The notes under the pieces: model-generated
Database searches by the model: none
Told to the model about the DNA's origin: nothing
Seen by the model: the letters and a program-made list of their open reading frames with translations, nothing else
Origin: Bradyrhizobium sp. CB82
Lineage (GTDB): Bacteria; Pseudomonadota; Alphaproteobacteria; Rhizobiales; Xanthobacteraceae
Assembly: GCF_029714405.1 (NCBI RefSeq)
Contig: NZ_CP121650.1
Span: 8,623,001-8,687,000 of the forward strand
Length of the DNA stretch: 64,000 bases
Direction: 5' to 3'
Shown: in pieces, positions 34,869-64,000 of the stretch
Position numbering within the stretch: the first letter of the stretch is position 1
Layout: each line of letters starts with the position of its first letter
Position numbers and translations under genes: made by a program

Positions 34869-36203
34869 TCACTTCTCCCGGAACGCCCGCATCAGTTGAT
34901 CGTGCAGCGGCTTCATCAAATAGGACAGCATGGTGCGATCGCCGGTCTGCACGAAGGCCTCGACCGGCATGCCGGGGATTAGCTTCACCTCGCCGAGGCG
35001 GGCGACCTCCTCCGGCGGCATCGAGACGCGGATGGTGTAATAGCTCTGCCCGGTGCGCTGGTCCGTGGTGACGTCGGGCGAGACGCGGCTCACGACCCCG
35101 TTGAGCTCCGGCGTGGTACGCTGGTTGAAGGCGGACAGGCGCAGCAGCGTCTTCTGGCCGACCTGGAGCTTGTCGATGTCGGTCGGATTGACCTTGGCCT
35201 CGACCTGAAGGTCGTCCTGCTGCGGCACGATCAGCATGAGGGTATCGCCGGCGGTGACGACGCCGCCCACCGTATGCACGGTCGATTGCAGCACCATGCC
35301 GTCCTGCGGCGCGCGGATGTCGACGCGACGGAGCTGATCCTCGGCGGTGACCTTGCGCTCGATCAGCTCGCCGATCTTGTCGTTGGTCTCGCGCAAATCC
35401 TTGGAGACCTCGCTCACCATGTCCTTGTCGACCTGAATGATCTGGAGCTCGGTTTCAGTGATCTTGCCCTTGGCCTGCGCGCGCGAGGCGATGTACTGCG
35501 CGCGCTCGCCATTGAGGCGGGCCGAATCGCGCTCGAGCGTGGTCAGGCGCGAGAGCTGCACCAGATGCTTCTCGTAGAGATCGCGGACGCCGACGAGCTC
35601 CTGCTGCACCAGCGCGATCTCCTTGTCCTTGGCCGTCTCCTGCGCGCTCAGCCCGTCGATCTCCTCGTTGAGCTGCTGAATGCGCTCGCGGAGCTGGGCC
35701 TTCTGTCCGGCGCGGCCGTTGACGCGGACGTCGAACAATTTGCCTTCACTGGCCAGCAGCGCCGCCACGTCGGGGTCGCTTGCGCGCTCGCGCAGGGCCT
35801 GCGGAAATTCCAGCTTGTCCAGGCCGCGCTGCTCGGCCTGCAGCCGTGCCGCGCGCGCCTGGGCGGCGTCGAGGTTCTTGGTGACGATGGCGAGGTTCGC
35901 CTTGGTGACGGTGTCGTCGAGCCGTACCACGATGTCGCCGGCCTTCACTACGTCTCCGTCGCGGGCGCGCAATTCGCCGACCACGCCGCCGGTCGGATGC
36001 TGCACCTTCTTGACGTTGGATTCGACGACGATCTGGCCCGGCGCAATCAGCGCGCCGGAGATCAGCACGGTCGAAGCCCAGCCGCCGAGCCCGCCGGCGA
36101 GCAGCAGCACGATCCCAAGTCCGAGCAGCAGGTGAAACCTGATCGACTGCCGCACGCTTCTCTTTGCCGCGGGCTTGGCGCCCTCCATCGCCATCGTGCT
36201 CAT
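34869..36203 (-). CDS. type I secretion periplasmic adaptor (HlyD family)
   Basis: This 444-residue membrane-fusion protein has one N-terminal transmembrane helix (LLLGLGIVLLLAGGLGGWAS). A short lipoyl half (GVVGELRARDGDVVKAGDIV) is followed by a coiled-coil of about residues 110-290 and the second half DIRAPQDGMVLQSTVHTVGG. It links the inner-membrane ABC transporter to a TolC-like outer channel. Its ATG overlaps the end of the ABC transporter gene by four bases, so they are translationally coupled. No TolC gene is in the window. Confidence 0.93.
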   Translation of the reverse strand: MSTMAMEGAKPAAKRSVRQSIRFHLLLGLGIVLLLAGGLGGWASTVLISGALIAPGQIVVESNVKKVQHPTGGVVGELRARDGDVVKAGDIVVRLDDTVTKANLAIVTKNLDAAQARAARLQAEQRGLDKLEFPQALRERASDPDVAALLASEGKLFDVRVNGRAGQKAQLRERIQQLNEEIDGLSAQETAKDKEIALVQQELVGVRDLYEKHLVQLSRLTTLERDSARLNGERAQYIASRAQAKGKITETELQIIQVDKDMVSEVSKDLRETNDKIGELIERKVTAEDQLRRVDIRAPQDGMVLQSTVHTVGGVVTAGDTLMLIVPQQDDLQVEAKVNPTDIDKLQVGQKTLLRLSAFNQRTTPELNGVVSRVSPDVTTDQRTGQSYYTIRVSMPPEEVARLGEVKLIPGMPVEAFVQTGDRTMLSYLMKPLHDQLMRAFREK

Positions 36204-37951
36204 GGTTTGGCCACTCCGCCTTCGCTGACGATCTTGATCGGCGGCGCCGGTGGGGCGACACGCGGCTGGAGCACCTGCGCGAGCACCTGCTCCTTCGGGC
36301 CGAAGGCCTGCATACGGCCGTCGCGCAGCACCAGGATCTGGTCGACCGCCTCGACGCCGATCGGCCGGTGCGCCACCACGACGACGATCGCCCCGCGCTC
36401 TCGCGCGGCGCGGATCGCGCGGGTCAAGGCCTCGTCGCCTTCGGTGTCGAGGTTGGAGTTGGGCTCGTCGAGCACGATCAGGAACGGATTGCCGTAGAGC
36501 GCGCGCGCCAGCGCCACGCGCTGCGCCTGGCCGGCGGACAACGCCGTGCCCTGCTCGCCGACCTGCGTGTTGTAACCTTCTCGCATCTTGATGATCATCT
36601 CGTGCACGCCGGCCTCTTTCGCGGCGGCAATGATCGCATCGGACGTCGCGTCGGGATCAAACCGGCTGATGTTCTGCGCGATGCTGCCGCCGAACAGCTC
36701 GACGTCCTGCGGCAAATAGCCGATGTGGCGACCGAGCACGTCGGAGGCCCACTGGTCGAGCGCCGCGCCGTCGAGCCGCACCTTGCCGCGCACCGGCTGC
36801 CAGACGCCGACCAGGGCGCGGATCAGCGACGATTTTCCCGAACCGCTCGGGCCGATCACGCCGAGCCCCATGCCGGCAGTGAGCATGAATGTCACGTCCT
36901 GCACGATGATGCGCTGTTCGCCCGGCGGCACGATGCTGACACCTTCGACCGCGAGGCGGCTCGAGGGCGCCTGCAACTGGGTCGGCATCACCTGGGCCGG
37001 AATCTGCTCCAGCAGGCGGCTGAGCCGCTGCCAGCTCTGCCGCGCGGCGACGAAGGACTTCCAATGCGCGATCGCGAGATCGACTGGCGCGAGCGCGCGC
37101 GCCGAGAGGATCGAACCCGCGATGATGATGCCGGCGGTCGCCTCCTGATGAATGACGAGATAGGCGCCGACCGCGAGCACCGCGGATTGCAGCATCATGC
37201 GCAGAACTTTTGCAATGGCACCGAGACCGCCGGCGACGTCGCTGGCGCGCTGATTTCCGGCGAGGTATTTTTCGTTGGCCTCGTTCCAGCGCTGGTTGAG
37301 CCGGCCGGCCATGCCCATCGCGACCAGCACCTCGGCATTGCGGCGGCTGGAGGCGGCGAGATCGTTGCGCCGCGCGGCGAGGCTCGTCGCCTCGCGCGCG
37401 GGCCGGCGTGACATGAACTCCGTCACCAGCGTGAGGCCGACCAGGATGATCGCACCGACCAAGGCGGTGATGCCGATCAAGACGTGGAATGCGAAGCAGA
37501 TGCCGAGATAGAGCGGCAGCCAGGGCAGATCGAAGAACGCGCTCGGGCCCATGCCACCGAGGAAGGAGCGGACGTTGTCGAGGTCGCGCAGGGGCTGGAG
37601 GCCTTCGTTGCGGCTGCCGACCAGAAGCGGCAGCCGCACGATGGTGTCGAACACCCGCTTGTTCAGGGCCTCGTCGAGCGCAGTGCCGACACGGCCAAGG
37701 ATGCGGCCCCGAATCAGGTCCAGAACGCCCTGCACCATGTAGAGGCCGCTCGCGAGGATGATCAGACCGACCAGCGTCGGGATGCTGCGGCTGGGCAGCA
37801 CCCGGTCATAGACCTCCAGCATGAAGATCGACCCGGTCAGATAGAGCAGGTTGATCATGCAGCTCATCAGGCCGACGCCGAGGAACACAGCGCGGCAGGC
37901 GCGCAAGGCGTCACCGAGCTCGGAACGGCGTAAGCCGGGAACCGCTGCCAT
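36200..37951 (-). CDS. type I secretion ABC permease/ATPase (PrtD type)
   Basis: This 583-residue fused transporter has an N-terminal membrane domain (about residues 20-310) and a C-terminal ATPase. The ATPase shows Walker A GPSGSGKSSLIRA, signature LSAGQAQRVALARALYG, and Walker B LIVLDEPNSNLD with the switch histidine in VVVAHRP. There is no N-terminal C39-peptidase or degenerate CLD domain, which is the PrtD subgroup exporting RTX-type proteins with a C-terminal signal. The best candidate substrate in the window is the 2630-residue protein at 50746-58638, whose C-terminus fits. Confidence 0.93.
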   Translation of the reverse strand: MAAVPGLRRSELGDALRACRAVFLGVGLMSCMINLLYLTGSIFMLEVYDRVLPSRSIPTLVGLIILASGLYMVQGVLDLIRGRILGRVGTALDEALNKRVFDTIVRLPLLVGSRNEGLQPLRDLDNVRSFLGGMGPSAFFDLPWLPLYLGICFAFHVLIGITALVGAIILVGLTLVTEFMSRRPAREATSLAARRNDLAASSRRNAEVLVAMGMAGRLNQRWNEANEKYLAGNQRASDVAGGLGAIAKVLRMMLQSAVLAVGAYLVIHQEATAGIIIAGSILSARALAPVDLAIAHWKSFVAARQSWQRLSRLLEQIPAQVMPTQLQAPSSRLAVEGVSIVPPGEQRIIVQDVTFMLTAGMGLGVIGPSGSGKSSLIRALVGVWQPVRGKVRLDGAALDQWASDVLGRHIGYLPQDVELFGGSIAQNISRFDPDATSDAIIAAAKEAGVHEMIIKMREGYNTQVGEQGTALSAGQAQRVALARALYGNPFLIVLDEPNSNLDTEGDEALTRAIRAARERGAIVVVVAHRPIGVEAVDQILVLRDGRMQAFGPKEQVLAQVLQPRVAPPAPPIKIVSEGGVAKP

Positions 37952-48391: not shown

Positions 48392-50620
48392 CTACTTCGT
48401 CAGCAGCGCGTGGGCACCGTTCCAGTCGTCCGGCGGCGGGTTGGCCTGGTAATTCCTGATCCGCGCCTCGTAGAGGCGGAACAGCTTCTCCAGCGTGTCG
48501 GCGTCTTCGCTTCTGCGGCCGCGCTCGATCGCGTCCAGCGCGCCCTGCCAGTCGCGGCTGCGGTAGCAGGCGAGCATCTCGATGGTGATGTTGCGCAGGC
48601 GCTGGAAGGCCCCCGAATGCATCACGTCCTCGCGGCCGGCGACCGCATAGATCACCTCCGGCTCGGTCTTGCCCTTCACCATGATGAAGTCGAGTTCGAG
48701 GATCGCGAACTTGTCCTTGACGGCGAGCGCGGTCTTGGAGCCGACGATGATGGGGAAGCCGTAGTCCTTGGTTTGTCCTTCCAGCCGCGAGGCCAGATTG
48801 ACGCTGTCGCCGAGCACCGAATAGTTGAACTTCAGGTCGGAGCCCATGTTGCCGACCACGCCCATGCCGGTGTTGAGGCCGATGCCGACATTGAGCGGAA
48901 TATAGACGTGACCGCCCTCGGCCGCCTCCTGCTCGCGTTCCTTGTTGACCTCGTCGATCTTTTCCAGCATGTCGATCGCCGCCTCGCAGGCGTTGATCTC
49001 GTGCTGCTTGTCATCGAGCGGAGCGTTCCAGAACGCCATGATGGCATCGCCCATGTATTTGTCGATGTAGCCCTTGCGCGCCAGGATGGCGTTGGTGAGC
49101 GGCGTCAGGAAGCGGTTCATCAGCGCGGTCAACCCTTGCGGGTCGTGCTTGTAGGTCTCCGAGATGGTGGTGAAGCCGCGCACGTCGGAGAACATGATCG
49201 TCATCTCGCGCTCTTCGCCGCCGAGCACCAGCCGCTCGGGCGCCAGTGCGAGCTGCTCGACCAGCACGGGCGACATGTATTGCGCGAACTGGCCGCGAAT
49301 CTGCTTGCGCTGTTGCTGCTCGCGGACGAAGCTTGCGAAGATCAGCGTCAAATAGATCGCGGTGGTCGAGAGCAGCGGATAGGTGGGATCGATCAAGAGG
49401 CGATAGCGCACATAATAGTACCAGGAGAAGCCGATCAGCACCGAAGCAAACAGCGCGCCGACACCGACCAGCGTGACGGGCCCGAACTTCGGCGCGAAAG
49501 CGATCACCAGAATGCCCATGATCATGGCGGCGAAGAACTCGATCGCGATGCCGTAGTTCGGCTGCGCGATGATCGAGCCGGTCAGCGCGCTTTCCAGCAC
49601 CTGGGCGTGAATCTCGACGCCGGGCATGGCGGGATCAACCGGCGTCGTCTTGATATCGTTCAGCCCTGCTGCCGAGGTGCCAATCAGCACCAGCCGTTGC
49701 GCGATCCTGTCCGGCGCAACCCGCCCTTCCAGCACGTCAACCGCCGGCACATAGATCGAGGGGTCCTGCGGGGCGAAATGCACCCAGAGCTGACCGTTCT
49801 TGTCGGTTGGAATCGAAAAACCCTTCACGCCGACGCTGCGGATACCTTCGCGATCGGTCTTGACCAGCATGGTGTCGGAGCCGGACACCACGCGCAGCAT
49901 TTCGAGGGTCAGCGACGGCAGGATCAAACCCTGGGCTTGCGTGATCATCGGCGCCCGCCGGACGATGCCGTCGCGTTCGGGCTTGATGGTGAGCAGACCG
50001 CGGCCGGCGGAGGCCGCCTCGAGCACGACGGTGTTTCGCAGCAAGCCGGGAAATTCGAACAGGAAACGATGCGGATCTTCACCCAAGGTCGCTAGGCCGG
50101 TCTGCGGAAGCTTGTTGTCGAGTTCCGAGTTGCTGACCGGAAGGCCGGTCTCGCCGAGCACGACGCGGGAACGCTTCATCGCCTCGGCGAACATCTGGTC
50201 GTTGCTCGGCAGCGCCTTCAGCTTCTCGCGCGTCGCCTCGTCCAGGTTGCGGAAGGTCTCGACCGCGATGTCGGGATTGAGCCGATCGGGCTCCGGGAAC
50301 ATCACGTCGAAGGCGATGGAGGCGGCACCGAGCCGGGTCAGGTTGGTGACGAGGTCGGCGAGCTTGGTCCGCGGCCACGGCCACTGGCCGACCGCCTTCA
50401 AAGTGCGATCGTCGATATCGACGATCACGACAGGCCTTGCGGTCTTCTTGCGGGAGTCCCACAGCTGGTAGTGGTCGAAGGTGCGGACGCGAAGCTCCTC
50501 GACCGGTCCCGGATCGGCGATGCGCAGGGCGGCGAAGCCGACGAGCAGCGCAAGGCAGACCAGCCGCGCATAGCCGAACCTGCGCGCGAACCACCGCCGC
50601 CATATCTTGAGCCGCTTCAT
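48392..50620 (-). CDS. CHASE2-domain adenylate/guanylate cyclase
   Basis: This 742-residue membrane sensor has a first helix near residues 15-35 and a periplasmic CHASE2 domain to about residue 330 (RPVVIVDIDDRTLKAVGQWP and VLIGTSAAGLNDIKTTPVDP). Three membrane helices follow (about 355-440), then a class III nucleotide cyclase domain. The cyclase has the metal-binding aspartates in MFSDVRGFTTISE and DKYMGDAIMAFW, plus LNVGIGLNTGMGVVGNMGSD and YSVLGDSVNLASRLEG. It should make cAMP or cGMP in response to a periplasmic cue. It lies 125 bases downstream of the giant surface-protein gene on the same strand, possibly in one transcript. Confidence 0.93.
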   Translation of the reverse strand: MKRLKIWRRWFARRFGYARLVCLALLVGFAALRIADPGPVEELRVRTFDHYQLWDSRKKTARPVVIVDIDDRTLKAVGQWPWPRTKLADLVTNLTRLGAASIAFDVMFPEPDRLNPDIAVETFRNLDEATREKLKALPSNDQMFAEAMKRSRVVLGETGLPVSNSELDNKLPQTGLATLGEDPHRFLFEFPGLLRNTVVLEAASAGRGLLTIKPERDGIVRRAPMITQAQGLILPSLTLEMLRVVSGSDTMLVKTDREGIRSVGVKGFSIPTDKNGQLWVHFAPQDPSIYVPAVDVLEGRVAPDRIAQRLVLIGTSAAGLNDIKTTPVDPAMPGVEIHAQVLESALTGSIIAQPNYGIAIEFFAAMIMGILVIAFAPKFGPVTLVGVGALFASVLIGFSWYYYVRYRLLIDPTYPLLSTTAIYLTLIFASFVREQQQRKQIRGQFAQYMSPVLVEQLALAPERLVLGGEEREMTIMFSDVRGFTTISETYKHDPQGLTALMNRFLTPLTNAILARKGYIDKYMGDAIMAFWNAPLDDKQHEINACEAAIDMLEKIDEVNKEREQEAAEGGHVYIPLNVGIGLNTGMGVVGNMGSDLKFNYSVLGDSVNLASRLEGQTKDYGFPIIVGSKTALAVKDKFAILELDFIMVKGKTEPEVIYAVAGREDVMHSGAFQRLRNITIEMLACYRSRDWQGALDAIERGRRSEDADTLEKLFRLYEARIRNYQANPPPDDWNGAHALLTK

Positions 50621-50745
50621 ACCTGTTGGACTTCCCGTAACCCGATCAGGTTCGATCTTGGATCTTCGGGACGCAAATGGCCATGGCCGCAAGCGACGAT
50701 CTGGGGATTTTTTGCTGGCCTGTAGCCGGGGCAGCGAGGCCCGCG

Positions 50746-53700
50746 CTACGTCGTGCCGTGGTTCGTGACGATGAAATCGCCGGCATGCAGGTTGCCGGCC
50801 ACCACGTTCTTGAGCAGGATCGTCTCGTGGTCGTCCAGGGTGATCAGCGTATCGGCATTTTGCTGCGTGATGGTGAGGTCGGCGACCGAATTGATGGTGT
50901 CGAACTGTCGCAGGTCGATCTTGTCCTGGGTCGTATCGAAGCCGTAGGCGGTGTGCTGGACGGCGTCCGTCGTTGACGCCGGGCCGAACACGAACTGGTC
51001 CTGCCCGCGGCCGCTGATCAGCGTGTCGCTGGACTGGGTGGCGAAGATGACGTCCTTGCTGCTGGTGCCGGTCAGCGTGACCGGAGCAGAGCCGCCTTCG
51101 TCGAAGATGAAGTTGACGGTGTCGCTGGCGCCAAGGCTGTCGGTCACCTTGAAGATAATCATGTCGGTATCGGGCGGGGTGGCGCCCGGATCGTAGGTCA
51201 CGCTGTGGAGAGCCGTGTTGACCTGGTCGAGAGAGACGCCGTCGAGGGACGACGGCGTCACGCCGGTGCCTTCCTGCGCGCCTTCGGTCTCCGCGGTCAC
51301 CGTGTAGGTTTCGGTCGGCGATCCCGAGACCGAGAGGCCCGTGACCGTGTCGATATTCGTCGCCTCGTCGTGCACGTGGGTGAAATGCGTGGTGTCGATC
51401 ACCGGAGACTGGTGGCTCCAGACCAGGTCCGTGCCGCCATGGCCGTCATCGACCTTCGTGAAGCCAGCTTCGTCGTAACCGCCGGTGATGGTGAAGTAGT
51501 CGCCGTCGCCGCTTCCATAATGGACCTGTAGCGCGCCATCGTAATTGGTGAACGAGACGTTTTCGGTATCGATGTCGGCAAGATGGATGGTGTCGCCATA
51601 GCTGAACCCGGTCACCGTGCACGTGAAGTGCGACGTGCTGTCGAGATGCAACGTGCCGACGCCGCTGCCGACGAACTGGATCGCGGAATCGGAGATGCCG
51701 CCGAGCTCGAGGCTCGCGGCCATGATCTGGACCGCGCCCAACCCGGTGAGATCGCCCGTGATCGTCGTGGCACCGGTTTCGACGATGATCGTGCCTTGGT
51801 TGTCGATCGAGCCGTCGTCCGTCACATTCCCGTCGAACACCAGCGTGCCGTGGACGCCGATGCCGAGTTGATGAACCTGCACCTGACTGTCCGTGCCGTC
51901 GAGCGTGGAGTCCCCGATCACCTCTACCATGGCTTGGCCGTCGCCATTGAGCTCGGTGCCATTCAAGGTCGCGTTGTTGAGAACGACGATCGATCCCTCG
52001 TCGGAAGCGTTGATCTGCCCGCCATTGACGATCTCGTTGAAGAGATCGATCGTCGCGCCATTCGCGGCATTGATCTGACCGCCCAAATTGTCGATCATAC
52101 CGCCCGAGGGACCGCCGAGCACCAGAACGGCATGGGGATCGTCGGCCTCGATGATCCCCTTGTTCGTGACGTCCTGGGACGCCAAGAAGATTGCCTTGTC
52201 CACATAGATGGCTCCGGCATTGTACAGCTTCCCGTTCACCGCAAAGAAGCTATCGACGCTTTCCTCATCCGGATTGTAGCCGGTGCCGGTAATATCGACC
52301 TCGGTGACATAGGTAAGTGACAGCCCACCGATGGTGTAGCCGCTATCGCCGAGGTTCAGATTGACCACCTGAACTGAATCGACATAGGCGGTTTCGGTCG
52401 CGGTCGGAATGCGGTCCAGCGTCCAGTTGCCATCGACCGTCCAGGTCTGGTCGACGTTCCCCGTCCACACATTGACGTTCGAGTCGTCAGCGGCGTTCAG
52501 CGTGATCAGCGTGTGGCCGGTCCCGTCGTCACTGCCGGCGAAATGCGCATTGCTGTAGTCGCCGACCAGCTTCACCGTGATGCTGTGGCCGTAGGCATCG
52601 CTGACGACGAGGTTACCGGTCTCCGCGTCGTAGCTCGCGGTGGTGCCGCCGTCGAAGGTGATCGTCGACAGGTCCAGCTTGTCGGTCGCCGCGAAGCCCG
52701 CGACCGAACCGCCGAAACTCGCGGTATCGATCTGGAGCTCGGCGCCGGCACCCGAGAAGGTGAGGGTCTGCCAGACCGTGGCCTTGACGTCGAGCGTCGC
52801 ATTGGCGTCGATGGTGACGGAGCCGGAGCCGGACAGCGAGCCGAACACCGTCAAAGTGCCGCTGTCGATCTCGATGCTGCCGGTGTTGACGATGGCGCCC
52901 GTGATGGAAGTGGAGCCCCAGCTCTCGATCTGGCCGGAATTGGTGATGACGAAGGCCGAACCGTCCGCACCGGAGATCGACGCACCGTCGTGCAGATCGA
53001 TCTCGCCGGCATTGCCGAACGTAGACAAGGTGCCGAAGAAGCTCGATCCGGACACCGTCCATGTACCGCCGGCCTCATTGTTGAAGGTCGTGCTGGCGAC
53101 CGAGATGTTGCCGTTGATATCGCCGGTGTTGTTGATCGTGACGTGACCGCCGGTCTCCACGATGGCATAGGTCGTGGACGTCACCGCACTCGAATTATCG
53201 GGCCCGATGGTGCCGGAATTGTCGATCAGCGCCGCGCCGGTGGCGTTCTGCTGGACGAAGATCGCGGCGTGGCCGTCCGCGCCCACGACCGTGCCCTTGT
53301 TGGTGATGAGGGTCGAGCCGGTCGCGCCCGTGCTGTCCTGCTTGACGACGATGCCAACCGCACCTGTGCCGGTGAGGTCGCCGTCATTGACGATGGTGAT
53401 GTCGCCAGCACCGGTGGCGAGCGCGGACAGGCCGACCGCGCCAGTGGCCGAGCCCTCATTGGTGACGCTCACATCGCCGCCGCCATGATCGAACGCACCG
53501 ATCGCGGTGCCGGCAGCCGTGATCGATGACGTCTCGCCCGTTGTGACCGTGATGTCGCCGACACCCCAAGTAAAGGCCTCGATACCGAAACCCGCATCCG
53601 CCGTGATCGTGGCGTCGCTCTCGACGGTGACGTCGCCGTTCACCGCGCTCGAAAACTCTTTGGTACCCTCAGGCTTGTAGCCGGCGATGATCCCGCCCGG

Positions 53701-56700
53701 CGTGGTTTCGTCGTTATTGAGGCTGGACCCGGAATGGATCGTGCCATGCGCCGTCACGAAGATCGTGCTGTCAACGCCACCTGCGATCGCTGTCGCATAG
53801 TTGACGGCCACGATGCCCGAGCTGCCCGAGGCGATGCTGTCGCCGTTGGACATCGTGACGGCAATGTCGCCCTGGTCGACGCTGTAGGCGAGGATGCCGT
53901 AGCTCGACGTGCCTGTCACCGATGCGTCGGCACCGAGCGCGACGGTAATATCGCCTGCGCCGCCACTCAAGGTCTGGGCCCGGATGCCGACGTCACCGGC
54001 GATCACCGTCGTACCGGCACCGTCATTCACCGTGACGTCGCCATTACCCCAGTTGTGAGCTTCGATGCCGAAACCAGCCGCTGCGGTGATATTGGCGTAG
54101 TTGTTGACGATGACCGTGCCGTTGACGTCGGTATTGGCTAACGAACCGGTCGGGTTTCCGTTGTAGCCGACCTGAATGCCGGCCGGCGCGCTGCCGCTCT
54201 GATTGAGGCTGCTGCCGGAGCTGATCGTACCGTAGGCATTGACGGTGATCGTGCTGCCCTCGGACGCATCGATCGATGTCGCCCGGTTGACCGCGACGAT
54301 GCCGGAGCTGCCGGACGTGACGATGCTGCCAGCGTCGGTGGTGACGGTCTCGCTGCCTGTGCCATAGCTGCGCGCACGAATGCCGTAGATGGCGCCTCCG
54401 GTGATATTGCCGCCCGCCTCGATGCTGACGTCGCCATCGCCGTGGGTCGTGGCGTCGATGCCGTAGGCGCCACCCGCGGCACCGCCGAGCTGCTTGATCG
54501 TGATTTCGCCGTCATTGGCGGCATTGAGGTTCTCGACCAGCACGCCCTCTGAGCCCGCGCCGGTCCCGGTCGCCTTGCCGGTGAGATTGGTCACGGTGAT
54601 GTTGCCGGACCCGCTCGCGCTGTCGCGTAGCCAGATGCCGTTGCCGTTCAGGCCCGTGATGTCCCTTGTCGCCCCCAGCGAGATGTCGCCGCCGCCGTTC
54701 TGGGTGACGAAGATGCCGTTGGCCGCGCCCGTCAGGCTACCTGTCGGCGCGAGCACGATGTCTGCGGGAGCATCGATCGTGCCACCGGACGCCGTGAAGT
54801 CGAGCGCATCGCCGCTCGCCGTGGTGATGTTGCCTGCGCCAGTGGCGGTGAAGGTGCCGCCGGACGTGGACTGGCCGGCGATGGTGCCGGTGAAGCTCTG
54901 GCCCGCGACATTGTCGAGCTGAAGCGTATCGGTGCCGCCGGCAAAGCTGATGGTCTGCGCGGTGGCGCCGGCAAGCTCGAGCGTCGCGCCATTGTCGATG
55001 ATCAGCGAGCCGGCGCCGCTGAGGCCGCCGGCAAGATCGAGCGTGCCGTCCTGCACCTCGATGGTGCCGGTATTGGTGACCCCTGCGGTGACGGTGTTGC
55101 TGCCCGTAACGCTGTAGAGATGGCCGGCATTGCCGAGGTTGCCGCCGTCGATCTCGACGCCCGACAGATACAGCTTCGATGTGCCGTCGACCGTCACCGT
55201 TCCACCCGTATTGGTGACCTTGACGGTGTCGAGCTTCAGGACGCCGCCGTTGATCGCCTCGAGCATACCGGTGTTGACGATCAGATCGCCGGTGACGTCG
55301 AGCTCGCCACCATTCGCCGTGATGAGGTGTTGATTGGTGATGGTGTGCTGCACGAGCGGATCGATCGTCAGCGTTCCGCCGGTGACGTCGATCGTGCCGA
55401 CATTGGTGATGTCGGCATCGTCGATGGCGCTGATGCCGGTCGAGACCAGCGTGCCGGACAGCATCAGCGTGCCGCCGTCGATGGTCGCGCCGACGAAATC
55501 GAGCCTCGAGCCGGCGTCCACCGAAACCGTGGCGCCGGTGTTGGTGACCGTCGTCGACACCAGCTTCAGCATGCCGTCGTTGATCGCCGCCAGCGTTCCG
55601 GTGTTGGTGACCGCCTCGCCATTGACGTCGAGCTCGCCGCCATTGGCCTGCAAAGTGCCTGCGTTGGTGATCGTGGCCGGAGTCGTCGCGACGAGAGCAA
55701 GCAAGCCGCCGATCGCCTCGATCAAATTGTCGTTGGTGATGAAGCTGTTGGTGATCGTGCTGGTACCGTTCGAGGAGAGCGTGCCTGATACGTTGAGCTT
55801 GCCGCCGGTAATCTCGGCCTGATTGAGGACTAACACGCCATGGTCATCGACGGTGATGGTGCCGGACGAATTGGCGATCGTGGTCCACTGGTCCAGCGTC
55901 AGCTTCGCACCGGCCTTGATTTCGATGATCGAGTCGTTGTCGACGGTCTCCTTGTCAAAAGCGACGGTCCCCATGACGGTGACGACGCCGGAATTGTCCA
56001 GCTCGCCATTGATCAGGAAACTCGTCGCCTCCAGCACCAATGTGCCGCCGATGATCAGCTTGCCGCTGTCGATGGTCGCGCCGACAATGTCCAGCGTCGC
56101 ACCGGCATCGACCTTGAGAGTGCCGCCGGCATCGTGAACCTCGGCCAGCGTCTTGAGCGTGCCGCCGGTGAGCTCGATCGTGCCGGCATTGGTGATCGAG
56201 GCGCCGACGGCGAAGTCGCCGCCGCCCGCGAGCGTCAGGGTGCCGGAATTGGTCAGCACGCTGGTGTCCAGGATCTCCGCCTTGCCGCCGACGGAAATCG
56301 TGGCGCCCACGGAATTGGCCAGGATCGAGTCGGCGCTGAGATTGAGCGCTCCGGCGATCGTCAGTATGCTCTTGTTGATGACCTCCGGCGGCGGGCCGCC
56401 GAAATCGTTCATGGTCAGCGATTTGGCGAACGCCGCCTCGTCAATCGTGACCGGATAGGATGGCGTCAGCCCGTGCAGCTGATCGGTGATGACGATGACG
56501 TCGTCGTCGATCGTCGGCACGGTGCCGGTTTCCCAGTTCGCGGCGTCCTTCCAGAAGCCGCCGGGCGGGGAGCCGGCCGCGTTCGTCGCGACCCACACCA
56601 CCGCCGGACTGTCGGTCCCCTTGATGGTGACGGTGATGGTCTGTGTCGTGGTCGCGCCTTGCGAATCCGTGATCGTCACCGTGTAGGTCAGCGTCAGGAC

Positions 56701-58638
56701 CTCGCCCTTCGGAATGAAGTCGGCGAGATAGACGGGCAAATCGGCGAGCGACCAGTCAATGACGCCGTCGCCCGACCCGGTACTGTCGGTGTCGATCGCG
56801 ACCGACATCGCCTTTTCGAAGGCGGCAAGCGGTCCCGGCGGCACGGTGCCGCCGTCCGGCAGCGTTGCTCCCGTCAGTTTGACCGACACCTTGTGGGTGT
56901 CGGTGAGATCGACGTCGGTGAAGGTCAGCGTTCCAGCGGTCGGCACCTCTGAGGTGAGCGGACCGCCGGGCACGCTCGTGCCGCCTTCGAAGGTGATGGT
57001 CGGGACGCTCGAGGTGATCACCGGCAGGTCGTTGGTGCCGGTAACCGTGATGGTGATGTCGATGAAGGCGGTTTGATTGTCTTGCGCGAAATTGTTGTCG
57101 ACGCGGACCCGGTAGGTCAGCGTCAGCGTTTCACCGGCGGCAAGGAAGTCGAAGGCGTTGTCCGGAACGCTGTAGCTCCAGGCCGCCGAGCCGATGTTGG
57201 TGTTGGCGGATGCGGGAACGACGGTGATCCTGGCCTCGGTCGCGACGATGTCGGCCTTTTGCAGGTCTGACAATCCCGCAGTGACGTCGTTATTCAGGGC
57301 GTCGTGGTAGGTGAAGGACGCGAAGGCCACCTTCACCGTCGGGCGGTCACCGACATTGAAGTCGAAGAACGTGATCTTGCCGCTGATCACGTCGAGATCG
57401 GCGGTATCACCCGTCTTGTTGCCGAGCTCGGTGAGAGCGAACGCCGTCTTCACGCTGCCGCTCGAGTCGAGGCTGCGCGCCTCCGGCGGGCCGGGAACGC
57501 GGCTCAAGGACGTCGGCTTGTCGGGGGTGTTCGTCGGCTGCCCGTTGTTGCCGTTACTGACCGTATTGACGTAGGTCGCCTGCGCCGTCGCGCCGCTCGC
57601 CGTCTTGATCAGCACGAGATTGGCGTCCTGCGTGATCGAATCGGTCGAGTTGTTCGTCAGCTTGGTGTTGGTATTGTTGTCCGTGAACTTCAGCGAGAAC
57701 ACGTCCGTGATCAGTTTCTGCACGTCCGGCGACAGCAGCGCGTTGGTGACCGAGACGTTGCCGCCGCTGATCTGGATCATCTGCCCCGCCTGGTTGACGG
57801 TGGCGATCGGCAGCAGCGTGACCTTGTCGAACAGGATGTAGGAGCCGGTGGTGCCGTCCGGCTCGACCAGCACCTGGAAATTCGCCTGCGGCTGCGGGTC
57901 ACCGCCGCCCGACGGAATCGAGAAGCTGATTTCCGTCAGCACAGCGGTGCCGCGGATGCCCATGGTGGCGACCGGCGTGTCGATCTTCATGTCGCCGTGC
58001 TTGGCGGTCTCGCCGGCGACGAAAGTGATGGTGCCCGCGACCAGGCTCAGCAGCGAGGAGTTGCTCGACCCGTTGGGATCGTAGACCATCTCATTCAGCA
58101 CCATCCGCGCGTTGGACGAGAGGCCGAAGACGGTGCCATCAATGAAGGTGACGCCGAGGGTCGAGTCCGACCCGGTCGAGAGCACGTCGCCCTTCTCGAC
58201 GTTGTCGCCGTTGTTCAGGATGATCGAGACGCCGTTGCGGACCGCGGTCGCGCTGCCGGTCAGCTTGGTGATATGGCCGATGACCTGCGCGGTGGCGGCG
58301 CCGGACGCCGCCTGCGCATACTGGATGTTGCCGGCGAGCGCGTTGACGATGTCACCGGTGAGATGGGCGCCGTCGGGCGAGGCGATCGCGGCGCGCTTCT
58401 CGCCCTTGAAGTAATCGTGAATGACGAACTCGTGTCCGTCGTTGGACAGCAGGAGATCGACACCTGTGCGCTTGAACTCGCCATGGAACAGGAGATTGGG
58501 ATCGGGAACAAAGTACGCGCCTTGTGGCACCTGCCCATGTCCCGAGACGGAAAACGCGTCGACATGGCCACTGGCAGGCGCGTGGAAACCCTGGCCATGC
58601 AAGGAGAGCGCGGCGTCAAAATTGCCAGCGTATTTCAA
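50746..58638 (-). CDS. giant FecR-VCBS-beta-helix protein, predicted type I secretion substrate/adhesin
   Basis: This 2630-residue protein has no classical signal peptide. Residues 55-105 are an N-terminal module (DLLLSNDGHEFVIHDYF) and residues 120-235 a FecR domain (GDVLSTGSDSTLGVTFIDGT and MKIDTPVATMGIRGTAV). Two VCBS/cadherin-like domains follow at about 390-540 and 545-680. From about 680 to 2480 there are hundreds of short beta-helix repeats of the TNSGTLTL and GGTLTI kind, restarted at about 2053 by a second WTVDGNW module. The C-terminus has one degenerate RTX-like turn (SGRGQDQFVFGP) and a hydrophobic tail typical of type I secretion signals. I found one cysteine only. The start is a TTG with no clear binding site, so the exact N-terminus is uncertain. 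Confidence 0.9.
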   Translation of the reverse strand: MKYAGNFDAALSLHGQGFHAPASGHVDAFSVSGHGQVPQGAYFVPDPNLLFHGEFKRTGVDLLLSNDGHEFVIHDYFKGEKRAAIASPDGAHLTGDIVNALAGNIQYAQAASGAATAQVIGHITKLTGSATAVRNGVSIILNNGDNVEKGDVLSTGSDSTLGVTFIDGTVFGLSSNARMVLNEMVYDPNGSSNSSLLSLVAGTITFVAGETAKHGDMKIDTPVATMGIRGTAVLTEISFSIPSGGGDPQPQANFQVLVEPDGTTGSYILFDKVTLLPIATVNQAGQMIQISGGNVSVTNALLSPDVQKLITDVFSLKFTDNNTNTKLTNNSTDSITQDANLVLIKTASGATAQATYVNTVSNGNNGQPTNTPDKPTSLSRVPGPPEARSLDSSGSVKTAFALTELGNKTGDTADLDVISGKITFFDFNVGDRPTVKVAFASFTYHDALNNDVTAGLSDLQKADIVATEARITVVPASANTNIGSAAWSYSVPDNAFDFLAAGETLTLTYRVRVDNNFAQDNQTAFIDITITVTGTNDLPVITSSVPTITFEGGTSVPGGPLTSEVPTAGTLTFTDVDLTDTHKVSVKLTGATLPDGGTVPPGPLAAFEKAMSVAIDTDSTGSGDGVIDWSLADLPVYLADFIPKGEVLTLTYTVTITDSQGATTTQTITVTIKGTDSPAVVWVATNAAGSPPGGFWKDAANWETGTVPTIDDDVIVITDQLHGLTPSYPVTIDEAAFAKSLTMNDFGGPPPEVINKSILTIAGALNLSADSILANSVGATISVGGKAEILDTSVLTNSGTLTLAGGGDFAVGASITNAGTIELTGGTLKTLAEVHDAGGTLKVDAGATLDIVGATIDSGKLIIGGTLVLEATSFLINGELDNSGVVTVMGTVAFDKETVDNDSIIEIKAGAKLTLDQWTTIANSSGTITVDDHGVLVLNQAEITGGKLNVSGTLSSNGTSTITNSFITNDNLIEAIGGLLALVATTPATITNAGTLQANGGELDVNGEAVTNTGTLAAINDGMLKLVSTTVTNTGATVSVDAGSRLDFVGATIDGGTLMLSGTLVSTGISAIDDADITNVGTIDVTGGTLTIDPLVQHTITNQHLITANGGELDVTGDLIVNTGMLEAINGGVLKLDTVKVTNTGGTVTVDGTSKLYLSGVEIDGGNLGNAGHLYSVTGSNTVTAGVTNTGTIEVQDGTLDLAGGLSGAGSLIIDNGATLELAGATAQTISFAGGTDTLQLDNVAGQSFTGTIAGQSTSGGTFTATGAGNITTASGDALDFTASGGTIDAPADIVLAPTGSLTGAANGIFVTQNGGGDISLGATRDITGLNGNGIWLRDSASGSGNITVTNLTGKATGTGAGSEGVLVENLNAANDGEITIKQLGGAAGGAYGIDATTHGDGDVSIEAGGNITGGAIYGIRARSYGTGSETVTTDAGSIVTSGSSGIVAVNRATSIDASEGSTITVNAYGTISSGSSLNQSGSAPAGIQVGYNGNPTGSLANTDVNGTVIVNNYANITAAAGFGIEAHNWGNGDVTVNDGAGTTVIAGDVGIRAQTLSGGAGDITVALGADASVTGTSSYGILAYSVDQGDIAVTMSNGDSIASGSSGIVAVNYATAIAGGVDSTIFVTAHGTIHSGSSLNNDETTPGGIIAGYKPEGTKEFSSAVNGDVTVESDATITADAGFGIEAFTWGVGDITVTTGETSSITAAGTAIGAFDHGGGDVSVTNEGSATGAVGLSALATGAGDITIVNDGDLTGTGAVGIVVKQDSTGATGSTLITNKGTVVGADGHAAIFVQQNATGAALIDNSGTIGPDNSSAVTSTTYAIVETGGHVTINNTGDINGNISVASTTFNNEAGGTWTVSGSSFFGTLSTFGNAGEIDLHDGASISGADGSAFVITNSGQIESWGSTSITGAIVNTGSIEIDSGTLTVFGSLSGSGSVTIDANATLDVKATVWQTLTFSGAGAELQIDTASFGGSVAGFAATDKLDLSTITFDGGTTASYDAETGNLVVSDAYGHSITVKLVGDYSNAHFAGSDDGTGHTLITLNAADDSNVNVWTGNVDQTWTVDGNWTLDRIPTATETAYVDSVQVVNLNLGDSGYTIGGLSLTYVTEVDITGTGYNPDEESVDSFFAVNGKLYNAGAIYVDKAIFLASQDVTNKGIIEADDPHAVLVLGGPSGGMIDNLGGQINAANGATIDLFNEIVNGGQINASDEGSIVVLNNATLNGTELNGDGQAMVEVIGDSTLDGTDSQVQVHQLGIGVHGTLVFDGNVTDDGSIDNQGTIIVETGATTITGDLTGLGAVQIMAASLELGGISDSAIQFVGSGVGTLHLDSTSHFTCTVTGFSYGDTIHLADIDTENVSFTNYDGALQVHYGSGDGDYFTITGGYDEAGFTKVDDGHGGTDLVWSHQSPVIDTTHFTHVHDEATNIDTVTGLSVSGSPTETYTVTAETEGAQEGTGVTPSSLDGVSLDQVNTALHSVTYDPGATPPDTDMIIFKVTDSLGASDTVNFIFDEGGSAPVTLTGTSSKDVIFATQSSDTLISGRGQDQFVFGPASTTDAVQHTAYGFDTTQDKIDLRQFDTINSVADLTITQQNADTLITLDDHETILLKNVVAGNLHAGDFIVTNHGTT
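53480..54360 (-). repeat. tandem protein-module duplication inside the giant gene
   Basis: Two adjacent modules of about 160 and 130 codons share the order SGSSGIVAVN, TI.SGSSLN, NGTVIV/NGDVTV, ITA.AGFGIEA and GVGDITV. The copies are near 54360-53875 and 53874-53480, with a period of roughly 490 bases. They have diverged, so the duplication is old. Confidence 0.75.
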
Positions 58639-59247
58639 CGGGGGAGCACCGAAAAAGGGTTAATATTTAAAGAAGTATCTGCTGCCTAAGCTTGCATATC
58701 ATTACCAAGTCCTTAGCGGAACCGTTGATTGCTTGCGCGAATCCACGCGGCATCCCCGCCATGGCCCGCACGAGACAGGGCGACCGCAGGGTAGCAAAGG
58801 TATTTGCTGGAATATTTGTAGGTATAGCCTCGCCGAATCAGCGGCATGTCCCATCATCCGAAGTATATTGAGGTATAAGTCTCGCAACGGATACTTACAT
58901 CATCTACCCATCGCATTGCTCTGCAACATACTGCGGCAAATACGGAGTTTTAACTGTGATCTGCCTAACAGAAGCGGTGCTATAAGCCCGCCATTAGTCA
59001 TATGCGGCAGATTCGGCCGCTGACTCAAGGTGGACCCGCAATTGGTTCCATTTCGCGGCAGAGGGCCTTCCCCGGGGCCCGACGCATAAAATCTTACGCA
59101 ACCCAGCGAGACCGGTTTCAGCCTGTTTGGCGGTTTTGGGACCCCTGCCGAGCGCGTTAAGCAGAACAAAACGGCCCTTTCTCACTATCTCCGAGCCGGC
59201 ACGTCGGGTCAGGGGTGTCCCTGCCGATGCTGGACAGGGGAAGTCAG
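58639..59247. promoter_or_regulatory. 609-bp divergent upstream region of the giant gene and the BTLCP gene
   Basis: This gap between divergent starts is visibly richer in A and T than its surroundings (for example TTAATATTTAAAGAAGTATC near 58662). I see no supported gene in it. It should hold promoters in both directions. A long 5' leader or small RNA is possible, but I cannot define one, nor a clear -35/-10 pair or operator. Confidence 0.5.
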
Positions 59248-59997
59248 ATGGAGACCGTTGCTCACTCGCGCGTCTGGCGCGCAGTCCTGCTGTTGTGCGG
59301 ACTGATCCTGTTCGGATCGGCCGCCGATCTTCGCGCCGGCACGCTGCTGTCGCCCGGGTCTGCCGTCAACGTGCGGAAATCCGCCGAGCCGTTCGGCGTG
59401 TTCGCCTTCGCGATCTCCGCAGGTCGCGTCCGCGACAAGTGGTTCCACCTGAAAGACAGGCTCGACGACGAGATGGTGCAGCTCGCGCTGTGCGACGGCG
59501 ACCGCGACAACTGTGTCTCACCCGCCGCATTGAAGCTGCTCGCCATCGTCGACCAGGCGCGTAGCCGCGAAGGCCGCGCCCGCCTCGGCGAAGCCAACCG
59601 CGCCATCAATCTCGCGATCAAGGCGGCCAGTGACGGTGCCGACGACATCTGGAACTCGCCGCTCGCCACCTTCCAGCGCGGCGCAGGCGATTGCGAGGAT
59701 TATGCGATCGCAAAGCTCGCCGCGCTCCGCCTCGTGGGCATTCCGCCGGAGGATCTGCGCATCGTTTTCGTGCGCGACACGCAAGTCGGCGCGGAGCATG
59801 CGGTCGTGGCCGCCAGGCTCGACGGCCACTGGCTGATGCTCGACAACCGCCGCATGGCCATGGTCGAAGATGACGCGGCGCGGATCTATCAGCCGCTGTT
59901 CGTGTTCTATCAGTCCGCGGTGCTGAAATATGTCGACGAGCCGGCTTTCGTCGCGGCGCCTGACAGCAGCCGCGCGGCGGTGATCGCGGCGCGCTGA
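59248..59997 (+). CDS. BTLCP (transglutaminase-like cysteine peptidase, LapG-related)
   Basis: This 249-residue protein has an N-terminal export signal (VLLLCGLILFGSAADLRA) and the BTLCP catalytic residues: cysteine in RGAGDCEDYAIAKLAAL, histidine in GAEHAVVAARL, and aspartate in HWLMLDNRRM. Bacterial members include LapG, which releases LapA-type adhesins by cutting near their N-terminus. AGGGGA precedes the ATG at 59248. It lies divergently next to the giant secreted protein, its most obvious substrate. No LapD-like inhibitor is in the window, so the functional link is inferred. Confidence 0.92.
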   Translation: METVAHSRVWRAVLLLCGLILFGSAADLRAGTLLSPGSAVNVRKSAEPFGVFAFAISAGRVRDKWFHLKDRLDDEMVQLALCDGDRDNCVSPAALKLLAIVDQARSREGRARLGEANRAINLAIKAASDGADDIWNSPLATFQRGAGDCEDYAIAKLAALRLVGIPPEDLRIVFVRDTQVGAEHAVVAARLDGHWLMLDNRRMAMVEDDAARIYQPLFVFYQSAVLKYVDEPAFVAAPDSSRAAVIAAR

Positions 59998-63308: not shown

Positions 63309-64000
63309 TTAACGCCACGTTTTCTTCTTTTTCCAGCGCCGCTCGCCCCGTGCGCCGGCCTCCTTGGCGCCAAGGTAAAATTCCTGGATGTCCTTTGAAT
63401 GCATCAAGCGGTCGCAGGTGTCGTTCATCACGACCCGGCCGATCTCCAGCACGTAGCCGTAATGCGCCGTTTCCAGCGCCACCTTGGCATTCTGCTCAAC
63501 GAGCAGGATCGACATGCCCTGCTCCTCGTTGATGCGGCGGATGATCGTAAAAATCTCCTTCACCAGGATCGGCGACAGCCCCAGCGATGGCTCGTCCAGC
63601 AGCAGCAGCATCGGCCGGTTCATCAGCGCCCGCCCGATCGCCAGCATCTGCTGCTCGCCGCCGGAGAGCTGGCCGGCCGGCTGGTTGATGCGCTCCCTCA
63701 GCCGCGGGAAATAGCCGTAGACCCGCTGGAGATCCTCCGCGACCGCGTCGCGATCCTTCCGCGGATAGGCGCCCATCATCAGGTTCTCGCGCACGGAGAG
63801 GAACGGAAACACCTCGCGCCCTTCCGGCACGTGGCTGAGGCCGAGCCGGACGATCTTGTCGGCCTCCATGCGCTGGATCGGCTTGCCCATGAACTCGATC
63901 GTGCCCTTCTGGGGATCGAGGATGCCGGAAATGGTCTTCAGCACCGTGGTCTTGCCCGCGCCATTGGCGCCCAGCAAGGTGACGATGCGGCCGCGCGGCA
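63309..64000 (-). CDS. livF: branched-chain-type ABC transporter ATP-binding protein LivF, 5' end outside window
   Basis: The visible C-terminal part of about 230 residues includes Walker A LLGANGAGKTTVLKT, signature LSGGEQQMLAIGRALM and Walker B LLLLDEPSLGLSPILV. The LivF hallmark LSHVPEGREVFPFLSVRENL is present. The reading frame runs off the window end through IVTLLGANG, so the start lies beyond 64000. The chain ends with a basic tail (GERRWKKKKTWR). It energises import together with permeases expected just outside the window. Confidence 0.93.
   Translation of the reverse strand, partial: PRGRIVTLLGANGAGKTTVLKTISGILDPQKGTIEFMGKPIQRMEADKIVRLGLSHVPEGREVFPFLSVRENLMMGAYPRKDRDAVAEDLQRVYGYFPRLRERINQPAGQLSGGEQQMLAIGRALMNRPMLLLLDEPSLGLSPILVKEIFTIIRRINEEQGMSILLVEQNAKVALETAHYGYVLEIGRVVMNDTCDRLMHSKDIQEFYLGAKEAGARGERRWKKKKTWR

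Follow-up and report, generated by a model that had tools for sequence, protein, structure and literature searches.

A conserved Bradyrhizobium gene cluster of a giant FecR-domain surface protein, a CHASE2 cyclase and a BTLCP protease: a possible surface-to-cAMP signalling module

Results

The window analysed here, a stretch of 64,000 nucleotides from the genome of the soil and root bacterium Bradyrhizobium sp. CB82 (10.14 Mb in two contigs), carries a cluster of three genes encoding a giant surface protein of the type I secretion system (T1SS) kind, a CHASE2 nucleotide cyclase and a protease of the BTLCP family. The giant, an open reading frame of 2630 amino acids (aa) with a FecR domain near its N-terminus, is located at 50746..58638 on the minus strand. 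The cyclase gene (48392..50692) follows on the same strand, and the BTLCP gene (59215..59997, plus strand) diverges from the giant on its upstream side. A CRP-like palindrome, TGTTA-N6-TCACA as read on the minus strand, lies between giant and BTLCP (58955..58970), as evidenced by a pattern scan and by its conservation across loci. At some distance, also on the minus strand, are genes for a T1SS ATP-binding cassette (ABC) transporter of the PrtD type (36200..37951) and a T1SS membrane fusion protein of the HlyD type (34869..36203), which scored 732 bits against NCBIfam type_I_sec_PrtD (cut-off 510) and 398 bits against type_I_hlyD (cut-off 209), respectively. A preliminary description of this DNA had placed a CHASE2 cyclase on the strand of the giant, a divergent BTLCP upstream of it and a PrtD/HlyD pair nearby, and all three were borne out, by Pfam matches to CHASE2 plus Guanylate_cyc and to Peptidase_C93, and by the two NCBIfam matches at 34.9-38.0 kb.

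The FecR domain (PF04773, 30.6 bits; residues 151-233, 57940..58188, minus strand) was the sole Pfam family called across the 2630 aa of the giant. Of the FecR-VCBS-beta-helix architecture proposed at the outset, the length and the FecR domain were therefore recovered, while the VCBS and beta-helix repeats had no Pfam call and come from a reading of the repeats. Alignment of the N-terminal region in 64 sequences, the window's included, delimited a prefix domain (approximately residues 41-113, bounds set by eye; 58300..58518, minus strand) that ends in a conserved (Y)AQA linker (58288-58329). This linker occupies the place of a signal-peptidase-like ARAQ site in small FecR proteins (at loci L019 and L199), and the T1SS prefix domain of the giant looks, as far as the sequence goes, as if it had replaced a signal peptide. 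The profile of the giant N-terminal region matched PDB chain 5ix9 ('Antifreeze protein', E 2.7e-4) at profile positions 114-187, which correspond to the FecR region; we take this chain to represent the N-terminal part of an RTX adhesin from the cell surface. An AlphaFold2 model of the N-terminal region was too poor to be used (pLDDT 42). The C-terminus (50749..51201, minus strand) reads as a T1SS-type target region and gave no match to the curated models of Pfam and NCBIfam; giant-like C-termini were found upstream of CHASE2 at many loci. The giant is probably an exported surface protein. At a further locus of the same genome (L019:3702-7960), a 248-aa FecR protein is encoded divergently to a 1076-aa FecR protein, and no match for CHASE2 or the window-type BTLCP was found in that 17-kb stretch.

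The cyclase scored 193.5 bits against CHASE2 and 72.7 bits against Guanylate_cyc, and its start is probably the ATG near 50620, giving 742 aa, since most of the listed relatives have this length. Catalytic motifs of the adenylate-cyclase kind are present in it; on our assumption that such motifs mark adenylate cyclases, the enzyme probably makes cyclic AMP (cAMP). No terminator-like site was found in the gap between giant and cyclase (scan total of 5, below the 6.9 of the shuffles), and RNA folding of this gap was unremarkable.

The BTLCP, with a probable ATG at 59248 and an N-terminus resembling, by eye, a signal peptide, is a divergent family member (53.3 bits against Pfam PF06035, Peptidase_C93; 57 bits against NCBIfam LapG, far under the cut-off of 320). 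Three stronger PF06035 members are encoded elsewhere in the same genome, and of 121 genomes searched in the order, at least 110 contain a PF06035 match. The Cys-His-Asp triad is intact, its positions being invariant in 16 aligned members, and the BTLCP profile matched the solved BTLCP-type chains 4u65 (2.5e-17) and 4fgo (2e-11). A search of the whole genome for LapD (PF16448, E <= 0.001), in which other kinds of cyclic di-GMP (c-di-GMP) receptor were not searched for, returned a histidine kinase as its sole match. Within the limits of PF16448, the initial statement that no LapD is visible thus applies to the whole genome.

Of 67 giants whose N-terminal part was searched for the LapG cleavage motif, published as [T/A/P]AAG (PMC13090378, the part available), 59 lack it, including the window's (L054, L061 and L075 being incomplete at the N-terminus). 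It was present in the other eight, in three of them within the linker before FecR. The AQA motif at the start of the linker was considered as a BTLCP-specific site and rejected, as it is conserved even in giants with no adjacent BTLCP. An Ala-Ala pair follows AQA in the linker of 49/64 named giants, counting the window's, and of seven of nine other giants of the family, together 56/73, compared with 4/19 outside the family, and [TAP]AAG occurs in the linker before FecR in 3/64, 3/9 and 0/19, respectively; these counts come from related giants and are hence not independent. A BTLCP cut in the Ala-rich linker before FecR would be plausible from these patterns.

Conservation was assessed at the best 80 of 190 confirmed loci from a scan of named genomes with the window cyclase, nearly all of them from Bradyrhizobium, to which the named close relatives belong. 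The giant N-terminal region was found upstream of CHASE2 at 67 of the 80 loci. Among the remaining 13, a long giant-type frame precedes CHASE2 and runs off the stretch or into N at L025, L028 (with a 1.4-kb gap after the frame), L040, L041, L044, L072, L078 and L095; the stretches of L027 and L079 start at or just before CHASE2 and are not judgeable; and L026 and L060 have no giant at the CHASE2 locus. The last, L043, has a giant-type frame that lacks the N-terminal region, and its BTLCP is reduced to a scrap. Giant and CHASE2 therefore occur together at 76 of 78 judgeable loci, with giant frames of 1300 to 3288 aa. A divergent BTLCP is present at 61 of 61 judgeable loci (61/63 of those with the giant start in the stretch, seven BTLCPs being cut by the stretch edge); L029 and L055 were not counted against it because their stretches begin less than 700 bp before the giant. 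L026 has lost nearly all of the giant while retaining BTLCP and CHASE2, and at L031 and L057 the giant frame stops about 4 kb before CHASE2, which suggests a broken or split giant. Since the flanking genes of the window are kept in the genus too (the SBP5 gene matched in 65/80 loci, the permease in 63), synteny within the genus is weak evidence, and it was rejected as proof of a module.

For other genera and families, profiles built in this analysis were run on stretches around distant giants. At two loci from other genera of the same family (L132 and L133), a BTLCP is divergent to a giant-ABC-HlyD-CHASE2 series, and five genes that flank the window cluster further out (SBP5, its neighbour, permease, PeriBP6 and AMP-ligase) all lack a match there; for the window gene at 63309, L132 gave a weak match (30%). 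The pump encoded within these two clusters is 72-79% (ABC) and 76-80% (HlyD) identical to that of the window. A pump also lies 2-5 kb downstream of CHASE2 in L024, L025 (ABC alone within the stretch), L040 and L060. Because L132 and L133 keep BTLCP, giant, pump and CHASE2 together in different surroundings, and because of the pumps near CHASE2 at these four loci, the PrtD/HlyD pair of the window is probably the cognate pump of the giant, now split off by a peptide-transporter region. Same-genus units with BTLCP, giant and CHASE2 together are L135/L136, L138 and L161.

Outside the family, 19 giants were inspected (stretches L141-L160, L152 and L153 being one). Giant and CHASE2 remain together in eight other families: 11 of the 13 giants that can be judged have CHASE2 nearby, and the six others run off their contigs. 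A T1SS ABC gene was found in 10 of the 19 stretches, accompanied in L148, L154 and L155 by an OEP/TolC-type gene, and the window-type BTLCP profile matched in none of the 19. All 17 BTLCP matches above 270 bits in an order-wide search of 397 genomes belong to the window's family; 16 of them lie within 0.8 kb of a giant N-terminal match, with one such copy in each of the 16 genomes (16/16) that have a BTLCP above 270 bits. The 17th, a second window-type BTLCP, is immediately followed by the same-strand gene of a small 223-aa FecR protein (L199:8158-9822), and the surrounding 10.8-kb stretch, bounded by the contig end, contains no giant and no CHASE2. Giant and CHASE2, paired in eight other families with no BTLCP match in the stretch, thus form the core of the cluster, and a pump is frequent in it. 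The BTLCP accompanies FecR-domain genes and is an addition specific to the window's family.

The association of FecR with CHASE2 extends well beyond giants. In 121 genomes of the order, at least 54 of 135 CHASE2 matches have a FecR match no more than 9 kb away, 34 of them on the same strand, compared with about one expected from a rough calculation based on genome sizes. This count used 135 of 143 CHASE2 rows (eight fragments or weak rows were left out) and 87 FecR rows picked by eye among the matches listed, and 54 is a lower bound because the FecR rows came from a partial listing. The genome of the window has a second FecR-CHASE2 pair, with a FecR protein of 184 aa, and a third CHASE2 with no FecR match nearby. 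Among plasmids (122 records matched, 40 matches listed), each of the five regions read places a FecR gene next to the CHASE2 cyclase or one small gene from it, as judged from Pfam domains. FecR directly precedes the cyclase in Paracoccus, Shinella, Ruegeria and the Sinorhizobium meliloti CyaK region, and in Ensifer it is divergent and separated from the cyclase by one small tetratricopeptide repeat (TPR) gene. The neighbour of CyaK is a 1190-aa FecR-TPR protein whose gene overlaps the cyclase gene by 1 bp, and which we infer, from place and size, to be NsrA. The Shinella and Ensifer loci (L194 and L192) sit within NHLP-type peptide export clusters with a gene for a cyclic-nucleotide-binding protein. 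FecR-CHASE2 clusters have already been published for Campylobacterota (PMC9239204) and Burkholderiales (PMC5192318), as the available parts of these papers indicate, and the latter, from 2016, states that CHASE2 ligands were largely unknown. A literature search, with subscription journals mostly outside its reach, found no published FecR-CHASE2 account with a T1SS giant.

Comparison of the intergenic regions between BTLCP and giant (61 loci plus the window) identified a site with at most one mismatch to TGTGA-N6-TCACA in 51 of 62 regions, compared with 0.85 in base shuffles, and with at most two mismatches in 55 of 62, compared with 12.3. The fixed positions of the half-sites are 92-100% conserved and the spacer 52-74%, a contrast internal to the site that weighs more than the counts because the loci are related. 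The operator core, whose positions were picked after the motif was seen, ranks first in the intergenic region for conservation; averaged over all 16 bases, the site comes 37th of 608. Of the 28 giants that the genome searches supplied, four have a site with at most one mismatch upstream (0.38 in shuffles). Across the window as a whole, the S. meliloti Clr-box pattern was at chance level (5 found, 6.19 expected), and TGTGAN6TCACA with at most two mismatches was found 8 times for 16.5 expected. It is conservation across loci that points to a candidate operator here. Two of the Crp-family loci read in the same genome carry a motif resembling a cyclic-nucleotide pocket, an equation of motif and pocket that is our assumption. 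The published Clr core of S. meliloti is GTNNCN4GNNAC (PMC10127613, the part available), of which the window site is a variant and not a match.

Discussion

The gene cluster, its domain content and conservation, the lack of a canonical LapD match and the conservation of the operator-like site are direct observations. The module is real and is best read as a variant of FecR-CHASE2 surface-to-cAMP signalling outside the Lap system, with signalling steps that we infer. That the locus as a whole is an NsrA-CyaK-like surface-to-cAMP module, built on a T1SS giant as the FecR partner and with the BTLCP as a lineage-specific element, is a reading to which we give about even chances. In this reading, the PrtD/HlyD pump would export the giant, and the prefix and FecR region would remain in the periplasm, where they would serve both retention and signalling. 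FecR could then act on the periplasmic CHASE2 of the adjacent cyclase and set its cAMP output, as the recurrent FecR-CHASE2 pairing and the published NsrA-CyaK genetics would suggest, and cAMP with a Crp/Clr-type regulator may act on the candidate operator between BTLCP and giant. In the Bradyrhizobium family, the added BTLCP would probably cut the Ala-rich linker before FecR and so end adhesion or signalling, which is the weakest step. More tentatively, and with clearly less confidence, the retained FecR end of the adhesin may itself be the ligand of the CHASE2 cyclase, a periplasmic readout converting the anchored, loaded or clipped state of the giant into cAMP. This would be an outside-in equivalent of Lap, with BTLCP cleavage doubling as the signal switch. 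FecR-CHASE2 pairing across an order, with FecR here carried by a T1SS giant and a probable pump encoded nearby, offers a concrete, testable candidate for a CHASE2 ligand; if this is correct, surface adhesion of root-nodule bacteria would be tied to cAMP instead of c-di-GMP, and the bacterium may monitor from within what state its surface protein is in.

The FecR region might instead be a structural retention plug and nothing more, with the cyclase sensing a plant, envelope or other signal and the giant being an output of cAMP. This we consider unlikely, although the CRP-like operator upstream of the giant and the 5ix9 match of its N-terminal profile fit it, since it leaves unexplained the small FecR proteins, and the FecR domains fused to unrelated architectures, beside CHASE2 cyclases. 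A further point in its favour, which also weighs against surface-to-cAMP signalling through FecR, is the S. meliloti FecR gene SMc02177, near cyaD1, a Clr target that was dispensable for perceiving the signal in the assays of that study (PMC5498481). Other results weigh against the surface-to-cAMP reading. The profile of the giant N-terminal region did not significantly match the 184-aa FecR protein of the second pair in the same genome (a single sequence against a shallow profile). Of the 28 giants from genome searches, the operator-like site is upstream of two of seven in the genus and two of 21 others, and its exact form had two genome matches compared with four for a reversed control. Giants occur with neither BTLCP nor CHASE2 (L134, L137) or with no BTLCP and the CHASE2 side cut (L139, L140) in the window's own family, and with no CHASE2 nearby in two of the 13 judgeable cases of other families (L157, L158). 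Distances of giant N-termini and BTLCPs, with neighbours controlled, gave partial correlations of 0.24 (48 loci) and -0.03 (20 loci), and those of BTLCP and CHASE2 correlated more (0.54 and 0.69, respectively), all with no control for the species tree; this co-evolution test is not decisive and partly unfavourable.

A Lap variant, in which the BTLCP would release the giant by cleavage under control of the cyclase instead of LapD, was the suggestion of the preliminary description. Its conserved module, the belonging of the nearby T1SS as judged from related genera, and its giant and periplasm-facing cyclase with no canonical LapD have stood; its replacement of LapD by the cyclase has not. The constant divergent BTLCP at judgeable loci, the closeness of strong BTLCPs to giants in every genome that has one, the intact triad and the enrichment of Ala-Ala in the linker within the family all speak for this variant, yet giant-CHASE2 units are found in eight families whose stretches lack a BTLCP match, the LapG motif is missing from most giants, AQA persists where no BTLCP adjoins, and no finding places the cyclase in control of the protease. 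Because FecR and CHASE2 genes moreover pair widely, the cyclase is not simply a stand-in for LapD, and we regard this explanation as improbable. Least credible of all, with only a slight chance of being right, is that three unrelated neighbours have been kept together by Bradyrhizobium collinearity; the conserved flanks within the genus would favour it, but L132 and L133 keep the cluster amid different flanks and giant and CHASE2 recur in eight other families. Regional synteny is already contradicted for giant, T1SS and CHASE2, and survives best for the BTLCP.

Surface-to-cAMP signalling through a giant has partial counterparts among known systems, the following comparisons being drawn from the available parts of the cited papers. 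Lap (LapA/LapD/LapG) shares a T1SS giant, with what may be an N-terminal retention region, and a BTLCP protease nearby, whereas here a canonical LapD match and a conserved [TAP]AAG site are both missing, and a cyclase stands in place of the c-di-GMP receptor; membership was rejected because the genome search with PF16448 gave no canonical LapD and the window giant lacks the cleavage motif. The DDxP giants of Bradyrhizobium also lie in T1SS clusters with BTLCP-like genes, but LapD-like genes are reported in those clusters and FecR goes unmentioned there (PMC7730722). The Dvh system of Desulfovibrio (DvhG/DvhD) has a BTLCP with a controller other than LapD, which in that case is DvhD, a dCache HD-GYP c-di-GMP protein (PMC13090378). 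In the BiofilmReg operon (LysM-FecR plus a CHASE2 histidine kinase) and the FecR/CHASE2 adenylate cyclase cluster of Campylobacterota, a FecR gene adjoins a CHASE2 sensor as it does here, and no T1SS giant or BTLCP is described in what is available of these papers (PMC5192318, PMC9239204). In S. meliloti, CyaK depends on the outer-membrane protein NsrA, with a barrel at residues 600-1200, to increase cAMP signalling upon exposure to an external protein (PMC7529298). NsrA-CyaK-Clr resembles the window in having a CHASE2 adenylate cyclase beside a FecR envelope protein, and would also share cAMP with a Crp-type regulator (PMC7529298, PMC13001267); its defining neighbourhood, a FecR protein encoded beside a CHASE2 cyclase, is present at the window. 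Unlike the S. meliloti FecR protein, which has TPRs and a size fitting the NsrA beta-barrel, that of the window is a T1SS giant with a pump and a BTLCP. By analogy, the closest known logic would be the outside-in signalling of NsrA-CyaK-cAMP rather than the inside-out control of LapD-LapG.

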